From: a virus
Virus record (IMG/VR): IMGVR_UViG_3300044960_000472
Coordinates: 1 to 39,990 of that record
Direction: 5' to 3' (one strand)
DNA length: 39,990 nucleotides
In this document: positions 5,870 through 39,677 of the stretch, in pieces
Numbering within the stretch: the stretch's first letter is position 1
Layout of the letters: each line of letters starts with the position of its first letter
Translations under genes and position numbers: made by a program
The notes under the pieces: model-generated
Told to the model about the DNA's origin: nothing
What the model saw: the letters and a program-made list of their open reading frames with translations, nothing else
Databases searched by the model: none

Positions 5870-5873
5870 CGGC

Positions 5874-13161: not shown

Positions 13162-13166
13162 GGTGT

Positions 13167-16015: not shown

Positions 16016-16227
16016 CTCGATCACCTCCTCGCAGGCCACCCTGCACCTCCATTCGCGAGGTCTCGAGGGGAGCGCCGCGGCGCCCGCTTCTCTCGACCTC
16101 GCCCCGATCGCACTCTCGCGTTCTCGTCTAGCGAGAACTACTCGCGTCGGGTCCTACTCCGCGTCGGCCCATCCTGCCGCGGCAGGAACAGCAGGGCCTT
16201 TTTTGCTAATCAAATATCCTTCGCCGC
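16016..16227. other. Intergenic region downstream of the major capsid gene, hairpin-rich
   Basis: No convincing gene was seen in these 212 bases. They contain a perfect 7-bp hairpin (GTTCTCG 16120-16126 with 16132-16138) and a 14-bp palindrome (16173-16186). A T6 run (16199-16204) and lower-G+C sequence (T-A-A-T-C-A-A-A-T-A) lie close to the capsid stop codon. Confidence 0.6.
16168..16204 (+). terminator. Terminator-like stem-loop pointing against the late operon
   Basis: GGCCC and CTGCC pair with GGCAG and GGGCC around the palindrome CCTGCCGCGGCAGG (16173-16186). The outer stem is followed at once by T6 on the plus strand. The orientation would stop plus-strand transcripts, opposite to the genes here. 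On the minus strand no U-run follows the stem. It may block antisense transcription or simply be a structured spacer. Confidence 0.4.
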
Positions 16228-17163: not shown

Positions 17164-17201
17164 CCTCGATCCCTCTTTCTGCCCCCGTCAGGGGACCGTT
17201 A

Positions 17202-17600: not shown

Positions 17601-17601
17601 C

Positions 17602-19415: not shown

Positions 19416-20983
19416 CAGAGGACCTCCCACAGCGATTGATTGACGGCGACGCGCTCGGCGCGGTCCCAGCCGTCGAGCGGCTGCTTTGACAGCGTCACCT
19501 GCACGCGACCGCCTTCGAGCTCGCGGACGTTGCGGTAGGCGTGACGCCAGCCGCGCTGATCGGCGGGGAGCTCGACGCCTTCACCAGCGGCGATGCGGAC
19601 GTCCTGGATCTCCCACGCCCTCCGAACCGGCGACTTGCCCTCACCGCGTTCACCATTCGCGGCGAGGAAGTCGAGGACGCGTTCGAGCTCCTCGCGCGAT
19701 TCGACGCGCATTCGGAGCGCGTACTCGGTCGACCGCGCGACGGTCATCCCTTCGGCGCGCCCGAGTCGCGTCGCGAGCTCGGCGTCGTGCACGACCTCCG
19801 GGTCGGCCCACCGCACGGGGTCCCACTCGCCGAAGTAGGTCGCGCGCGCCGCGACCCCGACTCGATCCTTCAGCGCGTAGAGGCCGTCGGTCTGCACGAG
19901 GCGCGTCGCGAGCTGCTCGGCGGTGTCGAGGTTCTGCGAGTACATGTGCCAGTCGACGTGCCAGCCGTCGCGCGGCGGCGCGTCGCCGCGCGGCTCGACG
20001 TTGAAGACGAACGTCTGTTCGAGCCGCTTCGCCACCTCGTCGGGTGAGAGCCCCGCGTAGCGATCGACTCGAGCCGCACGCGCGACGTCGTCGACGCGAT
20101 CGAGGTCGGCCGGGGACTGTCCGAGAACGCCGGTCGCCGACGCTTGCCTCTCGATCTCGCGCACGACGCGATCGGCGGTCCGCTGCGTCGCGGGCGACCC
20201 GCTGAAGCCGGGATCGGGCAGCATCTGGACCGTCTGCCCGTCGGCGGTCTGGACCATTCGCGGCAGCTCGTCAGAGACGGTGTGTCCCTCGCGATCGATC
20301 TGCGATTGGCTGAGCGAGTCGACGCTGCAGCGGCAACCCCAACCGTTCGGCGGGTACCACCGTTGCCACACCGGATCGTCGGCGCGGAAGACGCGCCCGT
20401 TCATCTCGCGGTGCGACGGCCGGACGCGCGAGTCGCCGGCGGTGCGGTAGATCCAGAACGGCCGCGCCGCGATGACGTCGGGATCGGTCAGCTGCGCGTA
20501 GCGGCCCGCTGCGTACGACCCGAGCACCGCCTGATCGAAGACGGTTCGAAGCTGCCAGTCGCCGAGCTGCCCGACGCCGGCAGAGTCGAACGCGGCGCGA
20601 ATCTCGTCGAGCGTCTCGCGCTCGGCAGTGCCGCGCTCGAGCGCCTTCGAGAGCGCCTCATGCGCCGTCTCGAGGACGTAGCGCGACTGCACGCCGGCGA
20701 TCGAGAAGCCCTTCGCCTTGTACATGTCTTCGAGGGCGTCGAGCTCCTCGGGAGACATCACCTTCTTCGACTTGAAGAACTCGACCGCCTCGTCGAACGG
20801 GAGCCCCGTGAAGAGGGTCTCGGCGGTGATCTTCAGCGACAGGTCCGGCGCGTCGCCGTGCGCCGATGGCGCCTGCAGCCGCCCGAGCATGTCGGCGTGC
20901 ATCGACACCTCGGTCGCCGCCGTCGCGATCTTCGCAATCGCCGCCGACGTCAGCAGCGTGAACAGCATCGCCCTCGCCTTCAT
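19415..20983 (-). CDS. Minor head protein MuF (Mu gp30/F-like)
   Basis: A 522-residue protein when started at ATG 20983, chosen for the GGGAGGGG site just before it. The MuF core is seen as L-P-F-D-E-A-V-E-F-F, then V-F-D-Q-A-V-L-G-S-Y-A-A-G-R-Y, then R-P-S-H-R-E-M-N-G-R-V-F and P-P-N-G-W-G-C-R-C at about residues 190-255. After it a long C-terminal part (about 200 residues, from roughly 320) is not needed for the MuF fold and is of unknown function. The same frame stays open upstream to the A10 run in the portal gene, so a portal-MuF fusion is possible. Confidence 0.82.
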   Translation of the reverse strand: MKARAMLFTLLTSAAIAKIATAATEVSMHADMLGRLQAPSAHGDAPDLSLKITAETLFTGLPFDEAVEFFKSKKVMSPEELDALEDMYKAKGFSIAGVQSRYVLETAHEALSKALERGTAERETLDEIRAAFDSAGVGQLGDWQLRTVFDQAVLGSYAAGRYAQLTDPDVIAARPFWIYRTAGDSRVRPSHREMNGRVFRADDPVWQRWYPPNGWGCRCSVDSLSQSQIDREGHTVSDELPRMVQTADGQTVQMLPDPGFSGSPATQRTADRVVREIERQASATGVLGQSPADLDRVDDVARAARVDRYAGLSPDEVAKRLEQTFVFNVEPRGDAPPRDGWHVDWHMYSQNLDTAEQLATRLVQTDGLYALKDRVGVAARATYFGEWDPVRWADPEVVHDAELATRLGRAEGMTVARSTEYALRMRVESREELERVLDFLAANGERGEGKSPVRRAWEIQDVRIAAGEGVELPADQRGWRHAYRNVRELEGGRVQVTLSKQPLDGWDRAERVAVNQSLWEVL

Positions 20984-22521
20984 CTGCCCCTCCCGTTCGA
21001 CCAGTCGCAGGACATCGCCCGTCAGCTCCTCGAATCCCCGTCGAGCACGCTCAGGCGCGCGCGCGACGAGGTCCTCTACGTGCCCCAGTCCATCGACCGC
21101 TTTTTTTTTTCGGCGGCCGCGAGCGTGAAGCCGCCGCCGCAGTGCGGACACGCGCCGTGCCGCCGCGCGAGATCCGCCGATTCCTTCGCGGTCGGCGGCG
21201 CGGCGAATTCCGGCGGCGCCTCGCCGCCCGTCGGCTCGATCGCGTCGTCGTCCGTCTCCGGCTCGCGCCAATCGAAGCGCTCGTAGACCTGCGCCTTCGA
21301 GAGCCGCACGCCGAGCTTGCGGCCGATGGCCATCGTCTCGGCTTCGACCTTGCGCGTCTCCGCCCGCGCCTTCTCGTCGACGGGCGCGCCGACCTTGTGG
21401 CAGATCCGCGGACGCGGCGCCGTCGGCCCGTAGTGGTAGACCGTCCACGGACCGAGGAGCTGCGCGTTCAGCAGCTCGTCGAGCCAACCGCCGTGAGCTT
21501 CCTTGCGGTCCTGCCTGAGTTCGTTCGCGACCTGCGATCGCGCGCGCGAGCCTTCGCCCATCTCCGACGTCTCGGCCTGGCCGAGCATCGCCTTCGCGAT
21601 CGCCTTCTCGCACCACGCGATGAAGGCGAGATAGACGTCCTTGATCGACGCCGCCTTCTGGATCGCTTCGAGGAACTTCAGCTCGACGCCGGCCGGAAGG
21701 AGGCCGACCTGATCGGCCATCAGCGCTTTCGCGGCGTCCTTCGCGCGCTCGAGCTCGGGCGCCCCCTCGCGCAGGTGCGGCGGCACCTGGATCGTGATGA
21801 ACGGGTGACCGAACCGCTCGAGGTACGACGCGCAGTCGATGAGGTTGTAGCCCTTGTAGAGCCACAGCTTCGCGACGGTGCGACCGAGGCCCGAGCGAAG
21901 GAACGCCGCGTTCCGCCGATACCACGCGACGATGATCCCAGGCGGCACGAGCTCGCCGTTCGGCGCGTTCTTCGTCTCGAGGTGAAGCTGCCCGTCGACG
22001 AGCCGACAGAAGCGCGTCTCAATCGCCTGGTGACCCGTGACGATCCACTCGTTCCCGTCCGCCGTCCACAGCGGTTGCACGAGCGAGAACTCGCGGAAGA
22101 TCGCGTCGAGCAGATCGACCTTCATCTGCGTGAACGACGGGATTCGCTTCAGGAAGCGCTCGGCGTGCTCAGCGATCGCGACGGCCTGGTCGGAGTCGTC
22201 ACCCGGCTCGACCTCCCACGGCGCGCCGGCGACCGCGAGCTTCAGCGTCTCGAGGCAGTGCGACACCTGCTCGTCGACGGCGACGTCGTCGAGCAGCTCC
22301 ATCCAACGCGCGAGGTTGCCGCGATCGGCGTCGCGCAGCGCGGAGAGCAGCCGCTCCGGCGAGATGTTCGTCGCCGGGTAGGTGCGCCAGTGCATCCGCG
22401 CCTGATCGAACTCCGTCGGCGGTGGCGGCTCGGTCGCGACCTCTGTCTTCGCGGCGGCGAGCGCGCGCGACGCCGAGGACGCCGTGGTTTCCTTCGCTAC
22501 GAACGGCCACCAACGCATCAC
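19415..22521 (-). CDS. Predicted portal-MuF fusion by -1 slippage at A10
   Basis: The portal frame (from 22521) and the MuF frame differ by -1 and meet at the A10 run (21101-21110). A shift there would give 1035 residues; (3107+1) bases divide evenly by three. Between the run and the MuF ATG (20983) the shifted frame reads V-E-D-L-V-A-R-A-P-E-R-A-R-R-G-F-E-E-L, a helical stretch with normal codon use that looks like genuine portal C-terminus. By contrast the unshifted frame stops after about 10 residues. A permanent frameshift mutation or homopolymer sequencing error would give the same picture. Confidence 0.55.
21076..22521 (-). CDS. Portal protein (Mu gp29, DUF935)
   Basis: A 481-residue portal protein of the DUF935 family. 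Motifs: T-N-I-S-P-E-R-L-L-S-A-L-R-D-A-D-R-G near residue 55; D-E-Q-V-S-H-C-L-E-T-L-K; I-F-R-E-F-S-L-V-Q-P-L-W; L-R-S-G-L-G-R-T-V-A-K-L-W-L-Y-K-G-Y; and E-R-F-G-H-P-F-I-T-I-Q-V-P. It forms the DNA entry ring of the head. GTG 22521 overlaps the terminase stop; ATG 22518 is the next codon. Just before its stop are C-P-H-C-G-G-G and K-K-K encoded by A10. Mu gp29 is about 512 residues, so the C-terminus here may be cut short unless frameshifting occurs. Confidence 0.87.
   Translation of the reverse strand: MMRWWPFVAKETTASSASRALAAAKTEVATEPPPPTEFDQARMHWRTYPATNISPERLLSALRDADRGNLARWMELLDDVAVDEQVSHCLETLKLAVAGAPWEVEPGDDSDQAVAIAEHAERFLKRIPSFTQMKVDLLDAIFREFSLVQPLWTADGNEWIVTGHQAIETRFCRLVDGQLHLETKNAPNGELVPPGIIVAWYRRNAAFLRSGLGRTVAKLWLYKGYNLIDCASYLERFGHPFITIQVPPHLREGAPELERAKDAAKALMADQVGLLPAGVELKFLEAIQKAASIKDVYLAFIAWCEKAIAKAMLGQAETSEMGEGSRARSQVANELRQDRKEAHGGWLDELLNAQLLGPWTVYHYGPTAPRPRICHKVGAPVDEKARAETRKVEAETMAIGRKLGVRLSKAQVYERFDWREPETDDDAIEPTGGEAPPEFAAPPTAKESADLARRHGACPHCGGGFTLAAAEKKKRSMDWGT
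21101..21110 (-). promoter_or_regulatory. A10 slippery tract at the portal 3' end
   Basis: Ten consecutive T on the plus strand (A10 in mRNA) lie at the point where the portal frame and the open frame leading into MuF exchange by -1. Long A runs are known sites of transcriptional and ribosomal slippage. Confidence 0.6.
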
Positions 22522-23972
22522 AGCACCCCCGACGAGCGCGACCAGGTGCGCCGGCCGAAGCTCGAGAGCACGCCGAGGTCGCCGAGCTGCGAGTCGCCCG
22601 CCGCCATCTTCGCGAGCGCCATCGACCAGAAGTAGTCAGCGTGACCGCCGGCGTCCGTCGACGCAGAGTCGAAGCGCGTGTGCCCCGCCGCCGTCGTCGT
22701 CTTGTAGACGCTGTTCAGCGACATACGGATCGCCTCCGCGCGCGGAAGCCGATTCGTCCGATCCTCGAAGCTGCGAAGGACGCGGACCGCGAGGTCCTCC
22801 TTCACCGTCGTCGAGAACTGCACGCCCTCGGCCTTGGCGCCGAAGCGCTCGACGGTCTCCTCGGCGAGCTGGTTCCCGATCACGCCCTGGTCGATGCAGC
22901 CGCGTCGGCAGTGCTCGAACGCCGCCCAGAGGCACGCCTTCTGCTCGGCGTACCGTCGGCCGCGCAGCGCGACGACGGCGCGCGTCCAGCGGAGGCCGCC
23001 GAGCTCCTCCTCGATCCACAGGACCGAGAGGTCCTTCGAGCGGCCGACGTCGTAGCCGAGGTAGAGCTCGCGGCCGGCGAGCGGCGCGAACAGGCGGCGC
23101 CACGCCGCCGGCGAGTCGTATCCGGCCGACGGCGGCGCCTCGCCGGCGCGGTCGAGGTGGCGCTGCCAATCGTTCCGGTCCGCGTCGATGACGAGGTACG
23201 GGACCAGCAGCGCGTCGTCGCTCTCGCACGCGATGATCGCGTCGACCGAGATGAGCCGCGTATCCTCGTCCTCGAACTCGACGAGGTACTCCGTCACGAA
23301 CGCGCGCCCCGTCGTGAGCGCCTTGATCTTCTCGAGGTCGAGCGGCGCGCCCTCGGCGATCGCCTTGTACACGTCGACGGTGTGCAGCGACCAACCCTTC
23401 ATCTCGCCGGAGCACACGCGGTAGAACGGTCCGCGCTTCGCGCCGGGCGTGCCGACGAGGCGGAGCTTGAAGCCCTTGCGGCCGGCGATCGGCGCCGCCG
23501 CCGCCCAGACCGCTTCGTCGTCGGGCGTCTTGCCCGCCTCGTCCCAGATCAGGTTGCCGTGACGGCCGCGGATCGTGAGCGGGTTCGTCGGCAGCCCGAC
23601 GATGCGTGAGCCCTCGGGGAACTCGACGACGTGGATCGTGAACTTCTCGCCGTCGACCTTCAGCTCGTCGTCGCCCATCTGCGCGCCGAGCTCGAGCGCT
23701 TGGCAGTGCAGCGACGCGTAGCGGATCATCTCCTTCGTCTGCCCCTCGGCGCCGGCGAAGACGAACCAGTTCGCGCGGCGGCGATCGACCTCGGCGAGGT
23801 GGCAGTCGAAGACCGGCTCGAGCATCACGCCGTGCGTCTTGCCCGCCGAGCGGCACCACCGGCCGGCCTTCAGGTGCGCCGGGTCGAGGAGCCAGCGCAC
23901 CTGATACGGGTAGAGCGGAGCGACCGCTTCCCCGACGGCGTCGACGAGCTGCTCGCGCGTCTCGAGCGTCAC
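22518..23972 (-). CDS. Terminase large subunit (Mu gp28-like)
   Basis: A 484-residue packaging ATPase/nuclease. With GTG 23972 as start (GTGA overlap with the upstream stop), the Walker A-like G-R-W-C-R-S-A-G-K-T is at about 37-46. Walker B L-I-W-D-E is at 141-145, the coupling motif G-T-P-G at about 174, and the RuvC-like nuclease opens with L-Y-L-G-Y-D-V-G-R-S-K-D (Asp308). The C-terminal A-D-Y-F-W-S-M-A-L-A-K is typical for terminase ends. It packages DNA into the prohead, and in Mu-like phages cuts inside flanking host DNA. Confidence 0.9.
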   Translation of the reverse strand: MTLETREQLVDAVGEAVAPLYPYQVRWLLDPAHLKAGRWCRSAGKTHGVMLEPVFDCHLAEVDRRRANWFVFAGAEGQTKEMIRYASLHCQALELGAQMGDDELKVDGEKFTIHVVEFPEGSRIVGLPTNPLTIRGRHGNLIWDEAGKTPDDEAVWAAAAPIAGRKGFKLRLVGTPGAKRGPFYRVCSGEMKGWSLHTVDVYKAIAEGAPLDLEKIKALTTGRAFVTEYLVEFEDEDTRLISVDAIIACESDDALLVPYLVIDADRNDWQRHLDRAGEAPPSAGYDSPAAWRRLFAPLAGRELYLGYDVGRSKDLSVLWIEEELGGLRWTRAVVALRGRRYAEQKACLWAAFEHCRRGCIDQGVIGNQLAEETVERFGAKAEGVQFSTTVKEDLAVRVLRSFEDRTNRLPRAEAIRMSLNSVYKTTTAAGHTRFDSASTDAGGHADYFWSMALAKMAAGDSQLGDLGVLSSFGRRTWSRSSGVL

Positions 23973-24211
23973 GGCGCCCCCCATTCGTCGCAAACGAAGT
24001 CATCGACGTCGTGCTCGGGGACCGCGACGAGAATCGGGTGAGTGACGATGCCGCCGTTCGAATCGGGGTTCGTGATCACCTGGACTTCGGTGCGCGCAGG
24101 CACGCGTCGCGTCTCGTGGTGCCCGGCGAGGCACGGACGCTCGTTCGCTGCGATGATCGCGCCGCCGGCGACGCCGACAGCGACAATGAGAGCGACGACG
24201 AGCCAGAACAT
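23969..24211 (-). CDS. Small single-pass membrane protein
   Basis: An 80-residue protein: M-F-W-L-V-V-A-L-I-V-A-V-G-V-A-G-G-A-I-I-A-A is one membrane helix, followed by a polar tail with a Cys (E-R-P-C-L-A-G-H-H-E-T-R). A GTGAGG site lies directly before the ATG, and the stop overlaps the terminase GTG. It lies between the small and large terminase genes, an odd place for a membrane protein. No family recognised. Confidence 0.65.
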   Translation of the reverse strand: MFWLVVALIVAVGVAGGAIIAANERPCLAGHHETRRVPARTEVQVITNPDSNGGIVTHPILVAVPEHDVDDFVCDEWGAP

Positions 24212-24213
24212 CC

Positions 24214-24816
24214 TCACGGCGTCGCCTCCTTCGCCGGCTCGGCGATGACGATGCCGTAGAGCTCGCGGATCGCCCGACGGAGATCGTCCTTCGTCGCCGC
24301 GCGCCCGCCGGGCTTCTCGGCCGCCTCGAGCTTGCGCCGGATTTCGGCGAGCTTCGCGTCGAGGATCTGGCGCTCCTGCTCGACCTTCTTCGCGCGGAGC
24401 TCGAGCTCCTGCGTGCGCTGCTCGAGCTTCTTCTCTTCGAGGCGACGCTGCTCGAGTGACGAGTAGAAGAACGCGAGATCGGCCGGGCGCTTCTCGGCGA
24501 GCGCCTGCAGCATCGGGTGCAGCTCCTTCGCCGCCTTCAGCGCGATCGCGCGCCGGAGCTCGCCGTCCGAGAGGTCCCCCATCCACTGCGCCATCTCGTG
24601 CGCGACGAGCTGCGCCTGCTTCGTCGCCTCCTGTCGCGGCCGCACCTTCGCCTGGTAGTAGCGACCTATCGCCGCCGCCGAGATCTGCTCGCCGGTCTCA
24701 CTCTCGACGCGCTCGGCGATGAGGTCGTACGGCAGCCCGTTCACGAGGCCGCTCTCGACGAGCTCGAGCGCCTTCGGCGGCAGCCGTTCGGCCTTATGGT
24801 GGCGGCGGCGGCTCAT
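24214..24816 (-). CDS. Terminase small subunit (Mu gp27-like, DUF3486)
   Basis: A 200-residue protein: basic start (S-R-R-R-H-H-K-A-E-R-L-P), L-P-Y-D-L-I-A-E-R-V then I-S-A-A-A-I-G-R-Y-Y (a helix-turn-helix), and a very long charged helix (L-E-E-K-K-L-E-Q-R-T-Q-E-L-E-L-R). Both fit DUF3486, the family placed before Mu-type large terminases and thought to be the DNA-recognising small subunit. It overlaps its upstream neighbour by 4 bases. Confidence 0.82.
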   Translation of the reverse strand: MSRRRHHKAERLPPKALELVESGLVNGLPYDLIAERVESETGEQISAAAIGRYYQAKVRPRQEATKQAQLVAHEMAQWMGDLSDGELRRAIALKAAKELHPMLQALAEKRPADLAFFYSSLEQRRLEEKKLEQRTQELELRAKKVEQERQILDAKLAEIRRKLEAAEKPGGRAATKDDLRRAIRELYGIVIAEPAKEATP

Positions 24817-26650: not shown

Positions 26651-27115
26651 CTACTTCGTCGGCTCCGACGGCGCCGGCGAGCCGGACGGCGGCGCGAGCT
26701 CACCGACGAGACCGGGCAAGAGCACGGTCTTCGTCGCCTCCGCCTTCTTCAGCGCGCCGCGCGCGACGGCGTAGGTGCCGAGCGGCAAGACGGCGAGCAG
26801 CGAATTCAGGATCTCTGCCCACTGTGACCCGTCGGGGATCACGCTGTGCCCCTCGATCCAGAGCAGGATCGCGGAGAGGAGCGAGAGCCAGAACTTCGAC
26901 GTCTTGAAGCCCGGCTTCCCGAGCCCCTGAGCGGACGTCGCGAGGGTGTTCGCCGTCGTGTACCCGACGGCGCCCAGCGCGGTCACGATCCAGCCGCCGA
27001 TCTTCGCGTAGATCGTCCCGTCGCCGATGAAGCCCGCGCCGACGATGGCGCCGACGAGGATCGCGAGGATCGAGAGCCAGAACTCGGACGTCTTCAGTCG
27101 CTCTTTCAGGGTCAT
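26651..27115 (-). CDS. Holin-like membrane protein
   Basis: A 154-residue protein with three or four membrane segments. The motif K-T-S-E-F-W-L-S-I-L-A-I-L near the N-terminus is repeated as K-T-S-K-F-W-L-S-L-L-S-A-I-L-L at about residues 71-85, a sign of internal duplication. The tail is Pro/Ser-rich and cytosolic. It sits directly after the endolysin with a 4-base overlap. Function as the holin that releases or activates the amidase is inferred from topology and place. Confidence 0.7.
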   Translation of the reverse strand: MTLKERLKTSEFWLSILAILVGAIVGAGFIGDGTIYAKIGGWIVTALGAVGYTTANTLATSAQGLGKPGFKTSKFWLSLLSAILLWIEGHSVIPDGSQWAEILNSLLAVLPLGTYAVARGALKKAEATKTVLLPGLVGELAPPSGSPAPSEPTK

Positions 27116-27927
27116 CGGGTCTTCTCCTTCAGCAAGTGGCGGACGATGGTCTCCACGCGACGAGTCCAGAGACCCGACTCGGGAAGGCGGTGCTCGTCTT
27201 CGAGCGCCTCGACGGCGCGGCGGGTATATTCGCCGTAGGTGCCGTCAGCGTGTTTCGGCCCGAGATAGCCGAGCTCGACGAGCGCGTCCTGACGCTGGCG
27301 CCAGTCGTCGAAGCGGCGCTCGAGGCGCACGGCGTCGTCGCGCACGGCGCCGCACCACGATTCGATCTCGAAGCCCGGGCAGTCGGCCTTGCCGAAGTCC
27401 GAGTGACAGAAGACGTCGATGCCGCTCAGCCCGTAGCGCTCGAAGAGGTAGCGGAGGAAGGGACGGAAGATCGTCCGCTGCCATCCGCTCGGCGAGCCGC
27501 CGTCGGGCGATGACTTCGACTTGAAGAGGCCCTGAAAGGCGATCGCGACGCCGTTGTGATTCGCGCCGGGATCGTTGTCGCGGCGCCCGGTGTGAAACGA
27601 GTGGACGTCGTCAGCGTGGCATCGGTAGATGCGAGGCCGGCCGCCGACGCCGATGTCCGGCAGCAGCGGCAAGAAGAACGTGTAGCCGATGCCCGGCCAG
27701 CCCTTCGATCGGACGTGGTACGTCGCCGTCGCCGTGACACCCTGCAGCCCCGGCTTGGTTCCGCCCTGCGTCTGATGAAGGACAATGCAGTTGATGTTCC
27801 CCGGCGGACGCCGAGAGTAGGAACGCTCCGTCGACCGCGGCAACACGGGCGACGCGTCGAGCAACTCGAACGAGTCGCACGAGTACTCGACGCGCAGGGT
27901 GTCGATGTCGCCGGGGCCAGCAACCAT
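27112..27927 (-). CDS. Endolysin: N-acetylmuramoyl-L-alanine amidase with peptidoglycan-binding domain
   Basis: A 271-residue protein. The amidase_2 domain (about 45-195) shows the zinc site: His51 in I-V-L-H-Q-T-Q-G, His175 in C-H-S-D-F-G-K and Cys183 in D-C-P-G. The middle has Y-H-V-R-S-K-G-W-P-G-I-G-Y and H-S-F-H-T-G. A peptidoglycan-binding domain follows (about 213-262: L-V-E-L-G-Y-L-G-P, D-G-T-Y-G-E-Y-T-R-R-A-V-E). No signal peptide is seen, so export by the holin next door is expected. It is the first gene of the late operon. Confidence 0.92.
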   Translation of the reverse strand: MVAGPGDIDTLRVEYSCDSFELLDASPVLPRSTERSYSRRPPGNINCIVLHQTQGGTKPGLQGVTATATYHVRSKGWPGIGYTFFLPLLPDIGVGGRPRIYRCHADDVHSFHTGRRDNDPGANHNGVAIAFQGLFKSKSSPDGGSPSGWQRTIFRPFLRYLFERYGLSGIDVFCHSDFGKADCPGFEIESWCGAVRDDAVRLERRFDDWRQRQDALVELGYLGPKHADGTYGEYTRRAVEALEDEHRLPESGLWTRRVETIVRHLLKEKTR

Positions 27928-27969
27928 GCGAGCGCCAAAATGCGCGTCTCGCGACCGTCGACAAAAGAT

Positions 27970-27992
27970 GGTCTCGTCGACGGTTTCTAAGC
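27970..27992 (-). promoter_or_regulatory. Bipartite element, copy 2 (candidate late promoter)
   Basis: On the minus strand GCTTAGAA is followed after 9 bases by GAGACC. Continuing, CTTAGA-N12-GACCATCT loosely resembles an RpoH-type promoter (CTTGAA and CCCCATNT are the known heat-shock consensus). The phage encodes an RpoH-like sigma factor. Assignment as its target is inference. Confidence 0.45.
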
Positions 27993-28016
27993 TCTTATTT
28001 GCTTACCCCGTGTAGC

Positions 28017-28039
28017 GGTTTCTCGACGAGATTCTAAGC
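28017..28039 (-). promoter_or_regulatory. Bipartite element, copy 1 (candidate late promoter or operator)
   Basis: On the minus strand GCTTAGAA is followed after 9 bases by GAAACC, the same two blocks and the same gap as the downstream copy 47 bases away. The perfect arm TCGACGAGA of the inverted repeat lies between the blocks. Confidence 0.42.
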
Positions 28040-28056
28040 CCGGCGCGCGTGCTCTG

Positions 28057-28992
28057 CTAGTGGCCGCTGCGCAGCTTCTGGACGAAGACGCCTTTGATTC
28101 GCGAGTAGCGCGACTCCCACGAGAACGGCTGCTCGTCGGGATTCGACGGGAACAGCTCGAGGAGCGGCCCGGCGACGCGCACGCGCTTCAGCGTCGCGAG
28201 CTGTCGCACGGTGTTCTCGACGACGGCGATCTCGTGCGGCTCGGCGACGTCCTTTCGACGCACAAGGATCAGATCGCCGTCGTGCAGATCGTCGCCGGAC
28301 ATCGACTCACCCTCGACGCGCAACGCGAAGTACTTCTTCGGGCTGAAGCTCGAGGGGTCGGGGTTGTCGATCGAGCCGTACACTTCGAGCGGCTCGACAC
28401 CGCGACCGGCGGCGATGCGGTAGAGGCGTAGATCGTCGGGCCGCGCGCCTTCTTCGGGCGCGTCGCCGAAGATGCGCACGCCCTCGATCGGCGAGATGCG
28501 GCGACGACGTTCAGCGAGTTCGTCGACGAACTTGGCTCGTGCCTCGTCGAGGAACTGCTCCTGTCGCGCCGCCGCCCGCGCTTGCCGACGGCGGGTTTCC
28601 TCTTCGTCGAGCCATGCTTCGAGTCTCTCCGGTTCGACCCTCCCATTCTCGAGGTCGAACCAAACGCGCTCGAGAGTGCCCCTGATTTCCGGCTTCGCCG
28701 TTAGGAGTGCCTCCGTCCGGATGTCCTCGTCGCGGTCGTCGCGGTCATGCATATCCTCGCCGAGGAGCAGGTAGTTCGGCGTGACGCCGAAAAACGCGAC
28801 TAGCTTCTCAAGGAACGCGCCCGACGGACGGATCGTGCCGCTCTCTACGCGTGAGTAGTGGCGCTGCGCGGTGTCGAGCTCCTTCGAGATCTCGACCTGA
28901 GACATTCCACGACCTTCGCGAAGCGCACGAATTCGCTCGCCTATCTCCGCGAACGGACGCGGCTTTTCCGTCGGAGGACGTCCGCGCGGCAT
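28057..28992 (-). CDS. CI/LexA-type self-cleaving prophage repressor
   Basis: A 311-residue protein. A helix-turn-helix (about 14-73: M-S-Q-V-E-I-S-K-E-L-D then S-R-V-E-S-G-T) is followed by a charged linker and an S24 peptidase domain. The Ala195-Gly196 bond in R-I-A-A-G-R-G, Ser230 in G-E-S-M and Lys269 in A-T-L-K-R-V correspond to the cleavage site and catalytic dyad of LexA/CI. It is expected to hold lysogeny and to be inactivated in the SOS response. Mu's own repressor lacks this domain. It is transcribed leftward from the 55-bp divergent region. Confidence 0.9.
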   Translation of the reverse strand: MPRGRPPTEKPRPFAEIGERIRALREGRGMSQVEISKELDTAQRHYSRVESGTIRPSGAFLEKLVAFFGVTPNYLLLGEDMHDRDDRDEDIRTEALLTAKPEIRGTLERVWFDLENGRVEPERLEAWLDEEETRRRQARAAARQEQFLDEARAKFVDELAERRRRISPIEGVRIFGDAPEEGARPDDLRLYRIAAGRGVEPLEVYGSIDNPDPSSFSPKKYFALRVEGESMSGDDLHDGDLILVRRKDVAEPHEIAVVENTVRQLATLKRVRVAGPLLELFPSNPDEQPFSWESRYSRIKGVFVQKLRSGH

Positions 28993-29047
28993 GAATTAGG
29001 ACTCTTTTGTCTTGCGAATAGGACTGAAGTGTCGTAAATCACTTCCC
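28993..29047. promoter_or_regulatory. Divergent repressor / early control region with TAGGACT repeats
   Basis: Only 55 bases separate the repressor ATG from the Ner-like ATG. TAGGACT occurs at 28997-29003 and 29019-29025, 22 bases or two helical turns apart, and these are likely operators. TTGCGA (29012-29017) and TAAATC (29035-29040) with a 17-base spacer make a possible rightward early promoter, which would leave a very short or absent leader before ATG 29048. Confidence 0.55.
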
Positions 29048-29338
29048 ATGCGTCGCACCGAACCGCGCCGAGGTCGCACGACTGCCGCACGCGAGCTCCG
29101 GATCATCCTGCTTCGCCGCAACCTCCTCGCGAGCGAACTCGCCCGCGAGATTGACTGCCATCCGGCGCACCTCTCGCAGGTCGTCAACGGTCACCGCCGC
29201 AGCGATCGCATCCGCGACGAGCTGGTTCGCAGGTTCGGCCGACGTCTAGGTCGCCTGATCGATGCTGCATCTGCCGAGAGTAAAACGTACGAGGAGCAGT
29301 CGTCCACCGGCGACTCAGCGACGCCCGAGGTCGGCTGA
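29048..29338 (+). CDS. Ner/Cro-like DNA-binding regulator
   Basis: A 96-residue protein. ATG 29048 (M-R-R-T-E-P-R-R-G-R-T) is preferred to the upstream GTG/TTG-type starts, which would lie in the control region. A helix-turn-helix is seen at about residues 17-62: L-R-R-N-L-L-A-S-E-L-A-R-E-I, then H-P-A-H-L-S-Q-V-V-N-G-H. Place and size match Mu Ner or lambda Cro, which repress the repressor and early promoters. It ends 5 bases before the transposase ATG, inside the 46-bp duplicated segment. Confidence 0.78.
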   Translation: MRRTEPRRGRTTAARELRIILLRRNLLASELAREIDCHPAHLSQVVNGHRRSDRIRDELVRRFGRRLGRLIDAASAESKTYEEQSSTGDSATPEVG

Positions 29339-29426
29339 CCTCGATGCGACTGTCCGGGGGACATCATCGGGCGAGTGGCTCTGACCTCGATGCGACTGTC
29401 CGGGGGACATCATCGGGCGAGTGGCT
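29335..29426. repeat. 46-bp tandem duplication at the transposase start
   Basis: Bases 29335-29380 and 29381-29426 are identical. Each copy contains the Ner stop sequence, an ATG and the palindrome TGTCCGGGGGACA (29351-29363 and 29397-29409). Because 46 is not a multiple of three, the ATG of copy 1 reads into the transposase frame and that of copy 2 does not. Confidence 0.9.
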
Positions 29427-31626
29427 CTCGCTCGAGGACGCACGCGCAATCGGGATCTCGCGAACCTCGTTTTACGAGCGCTTCAGCGCAGAGGTTGCGA
29501 AGAGCCGACTCTGGCTCGTCCGCGACGAAGGCCGAGGTCGACGGTTTGTTCACCGCGACGCGCTTTCGAACGATGAACGGCGTGCGTGGCAGCGGCTGCT
29601 CGCCGATCGGCTGAAGGCTGAAGCGCGCCGCGTCGAGCTCGGCTCGAAGTACTCCGAGCAGGGCGCCGAAATCCTCGAGCGCCTATCGGCTATCGGCGAC
29701 GTCACCGCCGAGGCGCACTACGAGTGTGAGGCGCAGCGCCGTCTCGAGCTGCTGCTCGAATACGAAGCGCTTTCGCCGAAGTACATCAAAGGCGCGCCGA
29801 ACCCACGCGCCGTCGAGATCACGCAGGAGTGGCGCTGCAAAGACCCGGTCATCATTCGCGACCGGAAGAGCTGGGCCAAGCCGATCTCGCTCCGCACCCT
29901 CGAGAACTACCGCGTTCGCTATCGCGAAGTCGGATTTGCCGCGCTCCTGCCGCCACGATGGTCGGCGCCGAAGCCCGGCGATCGTCGCGTTCTCGAGTAC
30001 CCGCCGGACGTCGCCGACGCGATCAGGAAGCTGCGCCTCGTCGCCTTCCCGAACCTCGGGGAGGAGCAGCTCTACAAGAAGGCGCGCGAGCGCCTCGGCG
30101 ATGTCATCGGCAGCGTTTCGACGTTCCGTCGTCGCCTGCGCGCGCTCGTGCCGCGCGACCTCGACGTCTTCGCGCGGAAGGGCGAGCGCACCTACGCCGC
30201 CACCGTGCAGACCTACGTGCCGCGGTCAACCGAGGAGCTCGACGTCTGCGAGCTGCTCGTCGGCGACCATCATCAGTTCGACGTCGAGGTGATCAACCCC
30301 GAGCGGAACGGCGCGCTCGATCGTCCTTGGCTCACCGCGTTCGTCGACATGAAGACGCGCGCGTTCGTCGGCTGGCACATCAGCTTTCAGCCGAACGCGC
30401 GCGCCATCAAGTACGCCTTCCGTCGCGCGATCGAGCCGAAGCCGCACGACGCATACGCGATGCTCTGCGGGATCCCCGCGTCGGTGTACATCGACAACGG
30501 GAAGGACTTCCGCGCCGGTGCTCTCGAGGGCGTCGAGGGCATGTTCACCCTCTGCGGCGTGAAGGTGATCCACGCGATCCCCTTCAACGCCAAGGCGAAG
30601 ACCGCCGTCGAGCGCCAGTTCGGGACCGTCGTCGAGCTCTTCTCGCGCGCGCAGCCCGCCTACTGCGGCCGGAGCACTGATGAGCGCACCGAGCGCTACC
30701 GCGCCGCCGCGTCCCGCTACAACGCGCTGCTGAAGAAGGGACGCCGCGATCCGTCGCTGCCGTTCCCGACGCTGGAGCAGTTCCGCGCTTCGTTCGAGAT
30801 GTGGCTGCTCGAGTACCTCGAGCGGCCGCACGAGGGTCTCGCGGATGAGGCGACGGGCCGCGTCTTCTCGCCGGCGGCGATCGCAGCGGAGCGACGTCTT
30901 CCGCCACGCCTTCCGACGAGCGATCAGCTCGCCGCGCTCACCTTCGAGGCGACGACGCGCGTCGTTCAAAAGGGATACGTGCAGCGCGACGGCGTGCTCT
31001 ACACCGCCGACGAGCTCTACGCGTACGAGGGCGTGCAGGTCACGGTGCGGTTCGATCCGCTCGACCTGCGCGAGGTCCTCGTCTTCGACCGCGCGAAGTT
31101 CGTGTGCCGCGCAGCGATGGCGAATCGCTCGCAGCAACGCGCCGACGGCACGCTCGATCAAGCGGCGCTCGATTACCGCCGCCGCTTCGAAAGCCGCAAG
31201 AAGAAGCTGCGCGACGAGTACGCGCGCCTTCGCTTGTCAGAGGGCGCTGGTACGGTCGATGAGGCGGCCGCGATGCTCCTCGGGCCCGAGCCCGCGCGAC
31301 TGTCCGCGCCGAGCTCGCCCGAGGTCGCTCCGCCGCCGGAAGCGGTCACTGCGCTGCTCCCGGTCGCAGCGTCGATCGCACGCGCGATGGAGACGCCGCG
31401 CGCCGAGCCGCCGGCGAACGACACCGGCGAGAGCACGGTCCGTCTGATGGAGGAGTCCGACGAGGCCTACGTCGTCGAACGCCTTTCGCACCGCCCTGAA
31501 ATGCCGCCGGAGGCGCACTTCCTCGACGAGGGGTCGCTCGCCTTCTACCGGCAACGCCAAGCCGAGTGGGACGCCGCCGCCGCTCGCTTGATCGCCGAAC
31601 GCAACGCCGCGCGCCCAACGCGCTGA
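29344..31626 (+). CDS. DDE transposase (MuA-like)
   Basis: A 760-residue transposase. The N-terminal winged-helix DNA-binding part starts at about 27 (W-L-S-L-E-D-A-R-A-I-G-I-S-R-T-S-F-Y). The catalytic core has Asp308 in V-G-D-H-H-Q-F-D-V, Asp384 in V-Y-I-D-N-G-K-D-F and Glu423 in K-T-A-V-E-R-Q-F. A MuA-type C-terminal beta-barrel (V-L-Y-T-A-D-E-L-Y-A-Y-E-G) and a long acidic tail follow. It cuts and joins phage ends for integration and replicative transposition. The only in-frame ATG near the start is in the first copy of the 46-bp repeat. MuA has 663 residues; the extra length is mostly at the C-terminus. Confidence 0.93.
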   Translation: MRLSGGHHRASGSDLDATVRGTSSGEWLSLEDARAIGISRTSFYERFSAEVAKSRLWLVRDEGRGRRFVHRDALSNDERRAWQRLLADRLKAEARRVELGSKYSEQGAEILERLSAIGDVTAEAHYECEAQRRLELLLEYEALSPKYIKGAPNPRAVEITQEWRCKDPVIIRDRKSWAKPISLRTLENYRVRYREVGFAALLPPRWSAPKPGDRRVLEYPPDVADAIRKLRLVAFPNLGEEQLYKKARERLGDVIGSVSTFRRRLRALVPRDLDVFARKGERTYAATVQTYVPRSTEELDVCELLVGDHHQFDVEVINPERNGALDRPWLTAFVDMKTRAFVGWHISFQPNARAIKYAFRRAIEPKPHDAYAMLCGIPASVYIDNGKDFRAGALEGVEGMFTLCGVKVIHAIPFNAKAKTAVERQFGTVVELFSRAQPAYCGRSTDERTERYRAAASRYNALLKKGRRDPSLPFPTLEQFRASFEMWLLEYLERPHEGLADEATGRVFSPAAIAAERRLPPRLPTSDQLAALTFEATTRVVQKGYVQRDGVLYTADELYAYEGVQVTVRFDPLDLREVLVFDRAKFVCRAAMANRSQQRADGTLDQAALDYRRRFESRKKKLRDEYARLRLSEGAGTVDEAAAMLLGPEPARLSAPSSPEVAPPPEAVTALLPVAASIARAMETPRAEPPANDTGESTVRLMEESDEAYVVERLSHRPEMPPEAHFLDEGSLAFYRQRQAEWDAAAARLIAERNAARPTR

Positions 31627-31640
31627 AGGAGCCAGCCCCG

Positions 31641-32657
31641 ATGGAAGAGACGCCCGAGTTCGAGAATCGCCTTCCGGAGCCTTCGAAGAACACGCGCCTC
31701 GCGAGCGTCCCCGACGACGCGAAGATGACCCCCGTCCGCAAGAAGGTCATCGAGCTGCGCAACTCGTTCGCGCTCGCCGACATCGCGCGCGCGACGAACT
31801 ACTCCGTCCCGACGCTGAGCGCCTGGGCGAACGGCAAGTACAATGGCGCGAGCGAGAAGATCGAGGCGGCCGTCTTGAAGTGGCTCATCCGCATCGGCGA
31901 GCAGCCGGAGGGCGGTGCCGTCGAGACGCAGCCGTTCCTCGAGACGCCGAACCAGCGCGCCGTCTTCTGGACGATCACGATGGCTCTCGAGCAGCGCGCG
32001 CTGACCGCCGTGATCGGGAAGCCCGGCCTCGGCAAGACGGCGTCGATCATCGCGTGGTGCAAGCAGGCGCGGCAGGACGGCATCCGTCACGTCGCTGTGA
32101 CCTGCGACGTGACGATGCAGAACAGCCCGCTCGCCATCCTGCGCAGGATCGCCGACGAGCTCCGCATCGAGCGCGCGCGCACGTCGACCGAACTGCTCGA
32201 CGCGATCTGCGAGAAGCTCCGCTCCGACGACTACCTGATCATCATCGACGAGGCGCAGCACCTCGGTCTGCGCCCGCTCGAGGCGATCCGGTCGATTCAC
32301 GACAAGGCGACCGCCGGGATCGCGCTCCTCGGCTCGCAGGCGCTCGAGTACACACTCGTCACGCCGCGCCGTCACTCCGAGCTGAAGCAGCTGCAGGACC
32401 GCCTCCTCGTCGTCAAGTACCTGCAGCCGCTCGCGCCGATCGACCTCTCGCGGTTCGTCGATGATTGGTGGGGCTCGCCGGTGCCCGAGCCGGTGAAGTC
32501 GAAGCTGCGCGCGATCTCCGGCGGCAACCCGCGCCGCCTCTGCCGCGTGCTCACGCACGCGCGCGCGATGTGCCGCCTCTCGAAGGGGTCGCTCACCGTC
32601 GAGATCGTCGACTCCGCGAACGCGCTCCTCTTCCGCTCGACGGAGGAGGAGAACTGA
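31641..32657 (+). CDS. AAA+ transposition activator (MuB-like)
   Basis: A 338-residue ATPase. ATG 31641 has AAGGAG about 9 bases before it; the longer upstream frame overlaps the transposase and is rejected. An N-terminal helix-turn-helix (about 44-68: F-A-L-A-D-I-A-R-A-T, V-P-T-L-S-A-W-A-N-G-K) as in MuB is followed by Walker A G-K-P-G-L-G-K-T (126-133) and Walker B L-I-I-I-D-E-A-Q-H (199-207). The sensor region includes G-I-A-L-L-G-S-Q. It selects target DNA and activates the transposase, and gives target immunity in Mu. Confidence 0.9.
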   Translation: MEETPEFENRLPEPSKNTRLASVPDDAKMTPVRKKVIELRNSFALADIARATNYSVPTLSAWANGKYNGASEKIEAAVLKWLIRIGEQPEGGAVETQPFLETPNQRAVFWTITMALEQRALTAVIGKPGLGKTASIIAWCKQARQDGIRHVAVTCDVTMQNSPLAILRRIADELRIERARTSTELLDAICEKLRSDDYLIIIDEAQHLGLRPLEAIRSIHDKATAGIALLGSQALEYTLVTPRRHSELKQLQDRLLVVKYLQPLAPIDLSRFVDDWWGSPVPEPVKSKLRAISGGNPRRLCRVLTHARAMCRLSKGSLTVEIVDSANALLFRSTEEEN

Positions 32658-36224: not shown

Positions 36225-36478
36225 TGACCGGCTGCGATGAGTGCGTTTTCGGACGCTGCCGCGACGGCCGGCGCTTCTGCTCAAAGCAGTGCGCCGACTC
36301 CTTCCGTGCATACGTGCAGCGCACGAATCGCTGGGAGCGTCGCGAAGCCGCTCTCGCCGCGGGCGACTACACTACGGCCGCGCGCCTCGACGGCGCCGGC
36401 GTCTCGGCGGATAGCCGACAGATCCGCCGGAAGCTCGCGCGCTGGGAGAACCGCAAGCTCGCGAGGGCGTCGCGATGA
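36224..36478 (+). CDS. Small zinc-binding protein
   Basis: An 84-residue protein starting at ATG 36224 (TGATG overlap). The N-terminus M-T-G-C-D-E-C-V-F-G-R-C, then F-C-S-K-Q-C-A-D-S-F resembles a treble-clef finger of the FCS/MYND type. The rest is a basic helix (R-Q-I-R-R-K-L-A-R-W-E). It lies between GemA-like and DnaB genes and overlaps the latter by 4 bases. The role is unknown; nucleic-acid binding is likely. Confidence 0.68.
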   Translation: MTGCDECVFGRCRDGRRFCSKQCADSFRAYVQRTNRWERREAALAAGDYTTAARLDGAGVSADSRQIRRKLARWENRKLARASR

Positions 36479-37911
36479 GCGACCTGTTCGCGCACGCATC
36501 GAACTCGCGCGCGGCCGCGCGCCGTCCCACGCCGCCGCATTCGCTCGAAGCAGAGGAGAGCGTCGTCGGTGGGATCCTGCTGCACGCAGGCTCGCTCAAC
36601 CGCGTCGCCGACTTCCTCGGACCCGACGACTTCTATCACCCGGCGCTCCGCGCGATCTACGAGGCGATGCTCGACCTCGACCAGGCGGGGAAGCCGGTCG
36701 ATTCGATCACCGTCGGCGAGCAGCTGAAGGCCAGAGACACGATCGACAAGCTCCGCGCCTTTGGCGGCCTCGACTTCCTCACCGAGCTCATGGGGAAGGT
36801 CGTCACCGTCGAGAACATCGAGTTCCACGGGCGCATCGTTCGCGGCAAGGCGACGGCGCGACGGCTCGTGTCGGCGTGCGGGGAGATCGCTGCACGCGGC
36901 TACGGCGAGTACGGCGACGTCGACACGTTCATCGACGAGGCCGAGCGCGCGATCTTCGAAGTCGCGCAACGCGCCGAGCGCTCGACGTTCGAGCACGCGA
37001 AGCCGCTCGTGAAGAAGGCCGTCGCCGCGATCGGTGAGCGGTATCAGCGACGAGACGTTGTCACCGGCGTCGCGACCGAGTGGACGCGGTTCGACGAGCT
37101 CACATCAGGTCTGCAACCCGGCGACCTCATCGTCGTCGGCGCGCGGCCGTCGATGGGGAAGACGAGCTGGGCACTGCAGGCGGCGATGCGCGCCGGTTTT
37201 CGTGGTGTCCCCGCGCTGATCTTCTCGCTCGAGATGTCGAAGCTCTCGCTCGTCGAGAGGATGATCGCGTGCGAGGCGCGGATCGATTCGTCGAAGCTGC
37301 GGCGAGGAACGCTCGACCAGCGCGATTGGGTTCAGCTCACGAAGGCCGCGACGGCGATCGCCAAGGCGCCGATTTACATCGACGACACGAGCGCGCCGAC
37401 GCTCCTCGAGCTGCGTGCAAAGGCCCGTCGCTGGCGCTCCGACAAGCGCATCTTCACGGACAAGACGCCGACGTTCAGCGGTAGCGACAAGCCGCAGGGC
37501 TTGATCGTCATCGACTACCTGCAGCTCGTGCAAGGACGCGCGTCGAAGGACGACAACCGTCAGCGCGAGGTCGCGGACATCAGCCGTGGGTTGAAGTCGC
37601 TCGCAAAGGACCTCGGAGTTCCGATCGTGGCGCTCTCACAACTGAACCGCTCGCTCGAGAGCCGCGAGGACAAGCGGCCGCGAATGAGCGACCTCCGTGA
37701 GAGCGGCGCCGTCGAGCAAGACGCCGACGTGATCTGCTTCCTCTATCGCGAGGAGTACTACGCGAAGGAGATGACGCCCGCGGAGCTGCAGGGCGTCGCC
37801 GAAGTCATTGTCGCGAAGCAGCGCAACGGCGCGACGGGGACGGTGCCGCTCGCGTTCCTGAACGTCTACACGCGTTTCGAGAATCTCTCGTCGCCGAGAG
37901 AGCTCTTTTGA
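36475..37911 (+). CDS. dnaB: DnaB-type replicative helicase
   Basis: A 478-residue hexameric helicase, close to full bacterial length (E. coli 471). The N-terminal domain (about 20-125: P-P-H-S-L-E-A-E-E-S-V-V-G-G, F-Y-H-P-A-L-R-A-I-Y) is complete. The RecA-like domain has Walker A G-A-R-P-S-M-G-K-T (222-230), Walker B L-I-V-I-D-Y-L-Q-L (343-351) and L-S-Q-L-N-R (388-393) with D-L-R-E-S-G-A-V-E-Q-D-A-D. It unwinds DNA at the fork. Mu uses the host DnaB loaded by PriA/DnaC, so an own copy is unusual. No separate loader is seen; the MuB-like ATPase could interact. Confidence 0.93.
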   Translation: MSDLFAHASNSRAAARRPTPPHSLEAEESVVGGILLHAGSLNRVADFLGPDDFYHPALRAIYEAMLDLDQAGKPVDSITVGEQLKARDTIDKLRAFGGLDFLTELMGKVVTVENIEFHGRIVRGKATARRLVSACGEIAARGYGEYGDVDTFIDEAERAIFEVAQRAERSTFEHAKPLVKKAVAAIGERYQRRDVVTGVATEWTRFDELTSGLQPGDLIVVGARPSMGKTSWALQAAMRAGFRGVPALIFSLEMSKLSLVERMIACEARIDSSKLRRGTLDQRDWVQLTKAATAIAKAPIYIDDTSAPTLLELRAKARRWRSDKRIFTDKTPTFSGSDKPQGLIVIDYLQLVQGRASKDDNRQREVADISRGLKSLAKDLGVPIVALSQLNRSLESREDKRPRMSDLRESGAVEQDADVICFLYREEYYAKEMTPAELQGVAEVIVAKQRNGATGTVPLAFLNVYTRFENLSSPRELF

Positions 37912-37959
37912 CCTGCACGGTGGAGACGACGCCCGTCTCCGAGGGAGGAAAAATGCCCC

Positions 37960-38139
37960 ATGAAACACGGTTCGCTGAAACGATTGGGACAGATGCTCGA
38001 ATGTCTGATTCAGGGCGGGGTCGGGCCCGGGATCATCGTCGAGGTGACGCTTCGCAAGAAGCCACCGTCGAAGTCGGTGACGCGGACGATCCGGCGTCGG
38101 CGGGTTCGACGGCTGCCGAGCCGGCCGAGGGTGCGATGA
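37960..38139 (+). CDS. Short basic protein (competing frames)
   Basis: A 59-residue frame: M-K-H-G-S-L-K-R-L-G-Q-M-L-E-C-L-I, then I-I-V-E-V-T-L-R-K-K-P and an Arg-rich tail. Its stop overlaps the next ATG (ATGA), like most joints in this operon. However, GGAGG is better spaced for ATG 37953 in another frame, which would give a 120-residue Asp/Ala-rich protein ending at 38315. Which frame is used cannot be settled here. Confidence 0.42.
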   Translation: MKHGSLKRLGQMLECLIQGGVGPGIIVEVTLRKKPPSKSVTRTIRRRRVRRLPSRPRVR

Positions 38140-38315
38140 CTCCCGGCGAAGTCTCGACGCTGGACACTCGCACGCTCCGCGAGGCTGAGATCGCTGGGCG
38201 CCTCTTCAAGTTCACGTCGAACGTCGCCCGGACCATCTCTACGCTGCGCATGAAGATGCGCCGCGAGAAGAGGCTTCACCTCATCGAACTCGACGGAGGA
38301 CGCGATGACCAATAG
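38136..38315 (+). CDS. Small helical protein before the DUF7768 gene
   Basis: A 59-residue product from ATG 38136: L-R-E-A-E-I-A-G-R-L-F-K-F-T-S-N-V-A-R then basic helix M-K-M-R-R-E-K-R-L. In the same frame the sequence is open back to ATG 37953 (120 residues). The C-terminal half is better conserved in character than the N-terminal half, so the short form is preferred. Stop overlaps the next start by 11 bases. Confidence 0.5.
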   Translation: MTPGEVSTLDTRTLREAEIAGRLFKFTSNVARTISTLRMKMRREKRLHLIELDGGRDDQ

Positions 38316-38850
38316 CCGTCGCTGGCGCTGCGTCGCCATCGAATCGCCGTTCGCCGATGTCGCGCGCAACCTCTCGTATCTGCGCGCGGCGATGCGCGAC
38401 TGCATTTTCCGCGGCGAGGCGCCCTTTGCGTCGCACGGTCTCTACACGCAGTGGGGCGTCCTCGACGACGACAAGCCGATCGAGCGCGAGCTCGGGATCA
38501 CCGCGGGCTTCGCGTGGGGCGAGCGCGCCGACGCTGTCGTCGTCTACACCGATCTCGGTATCTCGTCTGGGATGGAACGCGGGATCGCACGCGCCGAGGC
38601 GAACGGTTGTCCCGTCGAGTACCGCGAGCTCGGCGAGGGGTGGTCCGCTCCGAAGATCGTCGCGCCGTTTTCCATCGGAGATATCGTGCTCGTCTCCGGC
38701 GAGACGCCTTTCTTTCGGGTCCTACAAGTCGTGCTCGACGGTGACCCGCAAGGTTTTCGCCTGCAGCTCGAGCCCGTCGGCGTCGAAGGCGCGCTCCTTG
38801 TCATTCCGGCGTGGCGATGCCGCCGCGTTCCGCGTCCGGAGGTGCGATGA
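38305..38850 (+). CDS. DUF7768-like protein (deoxyribosyltransferase-like fold) with C-terminal barrel
   Basis: A 181-residue protein. Residues 8-108 match the nucleoside-deoxyribosyltransferase-like DUF7768 pattern: I-E-S-P-F near the start, P-F-A-S-H-G-L-Y-T-Q (40-49), R-A-D-A-V-V-V-Y-T-D-L-G-I-S-S-G-M (74-90), then A-R-A-E-A-N-G-C-P-V. The C-terminal 70 residues (F-S-I-G-D-I-V-L-V-S-G, F-F-R-V-L-Q-V-V-L) look like a small beta-barrel not usual in the family. It may act on nucleosides, nucleotides or related ligands. Stop overlaps the sigma-factor start. Confidence 0.72.
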   Translation: MTNSRRWRCVAIESPFADVARNLSYLRAAMRDCIFRGEAPFASHGLYTQWGVLDDDKPIERELGITAGFAWGERADAVVVYTDLGISSGMERGIARAEANGCPVEYRELGEGWSAPKIVAPFSIGDIVLVSGETPFFRVLQVVLDGDPQGFRLQLEPVGVEGALLVIPAWRCRRVPRPEVR

Positions 38851-39677
38851 TGATGCGCTCACCGCGGCTCTCGCTCGAGGAGCAGAACGAGCTCGCGCGT
38901 CGGTGGCGCGCGAGCGGCGACGTCAAGGCGCTCAACCGTCTCGTCGAGTCGCACGTCGCGTACGCCATCGCCTACGTCACGAGATACGGCACAATGGCGG
39001 AGCGCGATGACCTGATTCAGGAGGCGCAGCTCGGCCTCGTCGAGGCGGCTCGGCGGTTTGACCCTGATCGGGGTGTGCCGTTCACGGCGTATTGCCGCTT
39101 CTGGATCAAGGCGTTCACGCTGCGCGCGATCGCGGCGAGTCACAGCGTCTCGCTGTGCCGTTCGGCGCTGGGCGTGCGCACCGCGTATCACCGAGCGCCG
39201 TCGATGCGAGCTCGACTCGAGGCCGCCGGGCTCCCCGCGACCGACGAGCACGTCGCGGCGGCGCTCGGCGTGACGTCGCGGGACGTCGCCGACGTCGAGG
39301 CGGCGCGACGCGTGCCCCTCAGCTTCGACGCGGAACCCGAAAACGCGAGGTCGTTGCACGATAGGCTCGGCGACACCTTCGATCTCGAGCAGCTCTTCGA
39401 GGACGCCAAGCGGCGCGAGCTCGTTCGTGCGCAGCTCGGGCGGCTTTCACCGCGCCTTCGAATGATCGTCGAATGGCGGATGAACGGCATGTCTCTCGGC
39501 GCGATCGGTGATCACCTCGGCCTCTCGCGTGAACGCATCCGTCAGCTCGAGCTCCGCGCGATGAAGGGGATTCGGCGGGGTCTCGAGTCCTCGGCGGCGA
39601 CTCGCGCCCTCGCCACCCGCTCACGGCCCTTGGCGAGCAGTTACAAACGGGGTCCGGACAAACGGGTTCGCGTGTGA
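38847..39677 (+). CDS. RpoH-like sigma-70 family factor, likely late-gene activator
   Basis: A 276-residue sigma factor. ATG 38847 has GGAGG 4 bases before it and overlaps the previous stop; two further ATGs follow. Region 2 (30-95) shows D-D-L-I-Q-E-A-Q-L-G-L-V-E-A-A-R-R-F-D and F-T-A-Y-C-R-F-W-I-K-A. The next part (L-G-V-T-S-R-D-V-A-D-V-E) resembles heat-shock sigma RpoH. Region 4 (195-245) has a helix-turn-helix S-L-G-A-I-G-D-H-L-G-L-S-R-E-R-I-R-Q-L-E. Region 1.1 is absent. Last gene of the early operon, so it would appear before late transcription, in the role of Mu Mor/C. Confidence 0.88.
   Translation: MMMRSPRLSLEEQNELARRWRASGDVKALNRLVESHVAYAIAYVTRYGTMAERDDLIQEAQLGLVEAARRFDPDRGVPFTAYCRFWIKAFTLRAIAASHSVSLCRSALGVRTAYHRAPSMRARLEAAGLPATDEHVAAALGVTSRDVADVEAARRVPLSFDAEPENARSLHDRLGDTFDLEQLFEDAKRRELVRAQLGRLSPRLRMIVEWRMNGMSLGAIGDHLGLSRERIRQLELRAMKGIRRGLESSAATRALATRSRPLASSYKRGPDKRVRV

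Follow-up and report, generated by a model that had tools for sequence, protein, structure and literature searches.

Phages of the Mu type normally turn on their late genes through Mor/C proteins that activate host sigma-70, and these proteins are regarded as a hallmark of such phages and serve as a marker in searches for them. In Mu and the other phages with Mor/C that we compared (KS10, TJ1, RC1, DMS3 and SuMu), MuA and MuB, Mu-type head genes and TG...CA ends go together with a late regulator that closes the early genes. The phage described here shares these features, including a regulatory gene at the end of the early genes, but differs in that Mor/C has been replaced or lost and a sigma factor stands there instead, in that its late genes diverge from the early ones, and in that it carries its own DnaB. 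Phage sigma factors that serve as the early-to-late switch on host core polymerase, the role we propose here, occur in T4 (gp55) and in phages of the SPO1 type, where they serve late or middle genes; those phages are lytic and non-transposing, whereas the sigma factor of our phage is closer to RpoH and no promoter has been identified for it. The novelty lies in a sigma factor encoded by a phage whose group ordinarily relies on activating host sigma-70. A third point of reference is provided by the Leptospira transposable prophages, all of which are missing Mor/C, for which the paper gives no explanation; going by its description, they resemble our phage in having two opposed arms around regulators, but a sigma factor is not described there (PMC8705779).

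The window, that is, the whole stretch of DNA analysed, is the entire IMG/VR record IMGVR_UViG_3300044960_000472 (39,990 bases); the DNA is that of a transposable, Mu-like phage that is nearly complete and has a contractile tail (Table 1). The transposable character, asserted in a preliminary description of this DNA, is borne out by the MuA and MuB matches and by the inverted TG...CA ends. The phage extends from 5'-TG at position 23 to CA-3' at 39928, with inverted end repeats of 16 nt each (33-48 and 55-70 versus 39795-39810 and 39903-39918), and just 22 nt and 62 nt of sequence lie outside these ends. No target duplication was found across the two flanks, which read GTAGG on one side and ATCGA on the other; such short and unlike flanks would fit assembled virion DNA with random host ends or different insertion sites. 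The repressor stands between an early arm that runs rightward and a late arm that runs leftward. The early arm carries, in order, the HTH regulator, MuA, MuB, several genes of unknown function, DnaB, a small gene, the DUF7768 gene and the sigma gene, while the late arm starts with the amidase at 27927 and extends as far as the left end.

Three features of the early arm are recorded here in their own right. Mu relies on the DnaB of its host; the helicase of this phage is complete, and a DnaB match to it was found in none of 13 surveyed Mu-like prophages. At the start of the MuA gene lies a perfect 46-nt tandem duplication (29335-29426) with the palindrome TGTCCGGGGGACA in each copy; its length is not divisible by three, so that the reading of the MuA N-terminus is altered, and it represents either a recent event or an assembly error. 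Finally, the protein encoded at 33840-34826 combines a DNA-binding domain of the LexA type (Pfam, 4e-9) with a Cys-rich stretch behind it; a peptidase domain was not found in it.

Table 1. Features of the phage genome, with positions in the window, strand and supporting evidence
Feature	Position	Strand	Evidence or remark
Left phage end	23..70	.	Begins 5'-TG; two transposase-site-like repeats, 33-48 and 55-70
Late head and contractile-tail genes	3120..24816	-	Terminase, portal, gp30-like, protease, capsid, sheath, tube, tape measure, baseplate
Amidase endolysin, first late gene	27112..27927	-	phrog_1493 4e-12
Late operon leader, candidate late promoter region	27928..28056	-	Two GCTTAGAA copies; putative function
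CI-like repressor with LexA/S24-type domain	28057..28992	-	Pfam HTH_3 and Peptidase_S24
Candidate operators, two GGACT-N4-TGTC repeats in the repressor/early intergenic region	28999..29033	.	Sole exact copies in the window
Small HTH regulator (Ner/Cro-like), first early gene	29012..29338	+	phrog_1468 6e-6
MuA-like transposase	29344..31626	+	phrog_310 2e-78; Mu-transpos_C 8e-13
MuB-like transposition ATPase	31566..32657	+	phrog_296 1e-53
DnaB-type replicative helicase	36475..37911	+	Pfam DnaB_C 5e-96; TIGR00665 above cut-off
Terminator-like hairpin at dnaB stop	37884..37911 (hairpin 37884-37901)	+	Between dnaB and the last three genes
Small gene, function unassigned, upstream of DUF7768	37953..38315	+	ATG 37953 after GGAGG; atypical codon usage
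DUF7768 protein (nucleoside deoxyribosyltransferase-like)	38305..38850	+	Pfam DUF7768 7e-27; phrog_355 3e-18
Sigma-70-family factor, 276 aa, RpoH-like, last early-strand gene	38847..39677	+	Pfam regions 2 and 4, PHROG 351, NCBIfam RpoH, AF2 model, PDB matches
Right phage end	39795..39928	.	Finishes CA-3'; repeats 39795-39810 and 39903-39918, inverted relative to left end

The sigma gene runs from an ATG at 38847, preceded by a GGAGG Shine-Dalgarno sequence (CCGGAGGTGCGATG), to a stop at 39677. Its start overlaps the stop of the preceding DUF7768 gene, and 251 nt separate its own stop from the right end of the phage; since the phage ends are located outside the gene, we can rule out a host gene flanking a prophage. 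The product matches sigma region 2, which binds core polymerase and the -10 element (PF04542, 42.7 bits against a cut-off of 24, E 4.9e-11), and region 4, which binds the -35 element (PF04545, 42.4 bits against 24.1, E 5.1e-11), while the match to region 3 is weak (PF04539, 15.9 bits against 25.3, E 0.014); the structural model shows helices where this region should be. It also matches PHROG 351, a family of phage sigma factors (E 8.7e-37). In the AlphaFold model, the helices of sigma2, sigma3 and sigma4 are predicted with confidence and the 3.2 linker is disordered; sigma-S and E. coli sigma32, both within holoenzyme structures, are its top matches in the PDB and also the best solved relatives by sequence. 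The earlier claim that a complete sigma factor ends the early operon thus stands as regards regions 2 and 4, the coordinates and the last place on the MuA strand; "early operon" itself comes from gene order, and a hairpin lies upstream at 37884-37901.

The named family that matches the sigma factor best is RpoH (NCBIfam), followed by RpoS and RpoD, and the segment LGVTSRDV, cited in the preliminary description as a sign of RpoH resemblance, corresponds to LGVTSKDV of E. coli sigma32. The resemblance has clear bounds: against the RpoH equivalog TIGR02392 the protein scores 116.2 bits, far below the cut-off of 323.1, and of 50 columns at least 90% conserved among 34 RpoH-type rows (mostly cellular Pseudomonadota genes) it keeps 32 and has changed 18. 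The lost residues concentrate in region 2.3-2.4 and in the RpoH box, where the Q/F is gone, whereas the core-binding motif DLIQE and the region 4.2 motif RERIRQLE are retained. Therefore, while the motif and the nearest family agree with the earlier claim, the missing box, the many changes in 2.3-2.4 and the unmet cut-off do not, and we regard the protein as RpoH-like in the sense of nearest relative, yet as no member of RpoH by the family's own criteria.

A phylogeny against host RpoH and phage sigma factors was proposed in the preliminary description. In a tree of 78 sigma factors, the phage protein falls at the base of RpoH and outside the sampled RpoH sequences, with weak support (SH-aLRT 81) and on a long branch (2.27); the AU test does not reject (p-AU 0.6) a tree that pairs it with the sigma factor of a jumbo phage, encoded on a phage-like contig of 241 kb. 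The closest cellular sigma factors in a sample of 398 Pseudomonadota genomes are at most 38% identical, which rules out a recent capture of any sampled cellular rpoH. A recent host origin, named earlier as something that would count against the proposal, is thus unsupported by identity to the sampled cellular genes. Set beside cellular RpoH (sigma32), the phage-borne protein shares the best sequence match, the LGVTS(R/K)DV segment and region 4.2, and differs in its low identity, in lacking the RpoH box and in scoring below the family cut-off. Judged by its sequence, the gene is a real and intact one for an RpoH-lineage factor that is either old or fast-evolving.

No Mor or C protein was detected in the window by a six-frame Pfam search, which was empty at E <= 1; with E <= 1e-3 as the limit, the Pfam Mor family has matches in 7 of the 10 Mu-like phages from GenBank. 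We also built a local Mor profile from the GenBank phage Mor matches. Among 13 Mu-like prophages drawn from the 398 Pseudomonadota genomes it recognised Mor in 12, and it did so in Mwe-Yong1 too; after enlargement it also recovered the proteins of RC1 and vB_ThpS-P1. On the window these profiles gave no Mor, the best values (E 0.6-6.6) being spurious. The earlier statement that no Mor/C-type protein is present consequently holds by both kinds of search, which detect Mor in most Mu-like controls. Thiobacimonas phage vB_ThpS-P1 was reported by its authors to be without Mor (PMC5488378); we observed a Mor-like ORF in it at 26257-26667 (E 4e-13), immediately before the amidase gene. The sole prophage of the 13 without Mor (G271) has no sigma factor either. 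Where MuA or MuB falls on the sampled stretch, so that position could be read, Mor in the prophages shares the strand of the transposase and follows MuA/MuB at a distance of about 2-7 kb, before or facing the late genes, and the sigma gene of the window sits in the corresponding slot.

We propose that in this Mu-like phage a phage-encoded, RpoH-derived sigma factor replaces Mor/C and does the job of Mor, a reading to which we assign a probability of roughly 0.6. Host polymerase would read the early genes rightward (the Ner-like regulator, MuA, MuB, DnaB and others), with the sigma gene last. The sigma factor, once produced, would associate with the core RNA polymerase of the host and take it to one or more promoters that precede the leftward-reading genes for lysis, head and tail; the leader at 27928-28056 is the likeliest site for these. 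The late genes would in this way stay silent until the replication genes had been expressed. That the sigma gene is expressed together with the early genes, that its product binds core polymerase and has a promoter specificity, and that it works the late switch are all inferred. A sigma factor as substitute for Mor/C is the most economical reading and a plausible one, resting on the position of the gene, the missing Mor, the intact core-binding face and the diverged -10 region; the combination of kept core-binding and 4.2 motifs with a diverged 2.3-2.4 is what one would expect of a functional sigma factor that recognises -10 elements of its own. The case rests on one phage, for which no close relatives were found. 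The broader proposition, that a transposable lineage swapped the Mor/C cascade for a sigma factor derived from RpoH, specific for promoters of its own and driving the whole late operon, seems to us evenly poised between true and false.

The late leader is an AT-rich island of 128 nt. GCTTAGAA occurs just twice in the window, both times within this leader (28039-28032 and 27992-27985) and in the late direction, against 0.09 copies expected in shuffled sequence. This pair may be regarded as weak evidence for a late promoter, because about 2% of equal stretches have a private 8-mer pair of some kind and the motif was picked after inspection of the leader. No convincing RpoH-type promoter was found upstream of the late operon with the E. 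coli and alphaproteobacterial consensus sequences, and a TAAGCAAATAAG-like motif common to 28005 and 16209 was judged not significant.

The main competing explanation concerns the last three genes of the early strand. The codon usage of the sigma gene, the DUF7768 gene and the small gene is atypical relative to the phage core, as is that of the repressor and tail-end genes, and the terminator-like hairpin that precedes the trio may split it from the upstream early genes. Codon usage and hairpin are as compatible with an accessory block as with a regulator, and because of the codon usage an accessory role stays a real rival. In that case the sigma factor would be a moron-like function that redirects host transcription (for example, of stress or developmental regulons) in lysogeny or infection, and the late genes would use host sigma with an unrecognised activator. 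The place of the gene next to the phage end agrees with such a role, but its start overlaps the upstream gene and no separate sigma-70-type promoter was found in 37500-39990. There are precedents in phage sigma factors known to act on host genes and to be dispensable for growth (PMC9429907) and, since transposable phages without Mor exist (PMC8705779), an absent Mor need not mean a sigma switch. However, the whole-gene GC of the sigma gene is near the phage mean, and no other known late activator was found among the scanned window proteins. Taken together, we consider an accessory role unlikely, while giving it more weight than the explanations that follow.

The late genes could also depend on host sigma together with a diverged or different activator from the early region, for instance the LexA-domain protein at 33840-34826 or the product of the small gene at 37953, the sigma factor then being one regulator among several. 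Several early proteins are without assignment, and vB_ThpS-P1 illustrates that a very diverged Mor exists and can be missed; nevertheless, the profile able to recover that protein gives nothing in the window, which speaks against a missed divergent Mor, and it is Mor that closes the early operon in relatives, the place held here by the sigma gene. We regard this explanation as quite improbable. Least probable is a chance or decaying capture of host rpoH without a role, for which RpoH as nearest family and the 18 changed positions might speak, but which fits poorly with an intact ORF, a good ribosome site, conserved core-binding motifs, a confident fold and the absence of a near-identical cellular gene from the 398 Pseudomonadota genomes.

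We found no second case of a sigma factor in the place of Mor in the prophages, phages and IMG/VR records searched. No sigma profile match was found in the 13 Mu-like prophages, and none above the cut-off in the 10 GenBank Mu-like phages. Sigma matches were also absent from 80 IMG/VR loci with the terminase most like that of the window and, above the cut-off, from 50 of these records searched whole, just as a Mu-type transposase was absent from 50 IMG/VR records carrying related sigma factors; many IMG/VR records are fragments, so that these zero counts are no proof of absence. Sigma and Mor never occurred together in the surveyed prophages, phages and IMG/VR records. Patterns from the transposase, sheath, DnaB and sigma factor retrieved no close relatives in IMG/VR, and in the open-access literature we found no report of a transposable phage with a sigma factor. 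Klebsiella phage records annotated with a "sigma factor" proved to contain host rpoD inside over-long prophage records. If the proposed replacement is true, the late switch of transposable phages is itself replaceable, which hints at how members without Mor can work and means that surveys based on Mor miss such phages. One sigma gene and one late leader make a simple and directly testable system.

Two further observations concern other parts of the genome. The gp30-like head protein has its closest counterparts (about 357 bits) on two IMG/VR contigs, L248 and L255; L248 has an ORF that resembles a tyrosine integrase by eye and has no MuA match, which suggests that the head module may be common to integrating phages also. 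In addition, TGTCCGG/CCGGACA occurs 13 times in the window against 5.4 expected, and four of the sites form a cluster at 39654-39727, in the interval from the sigma stop region to the right end, and are possible regulator sites.
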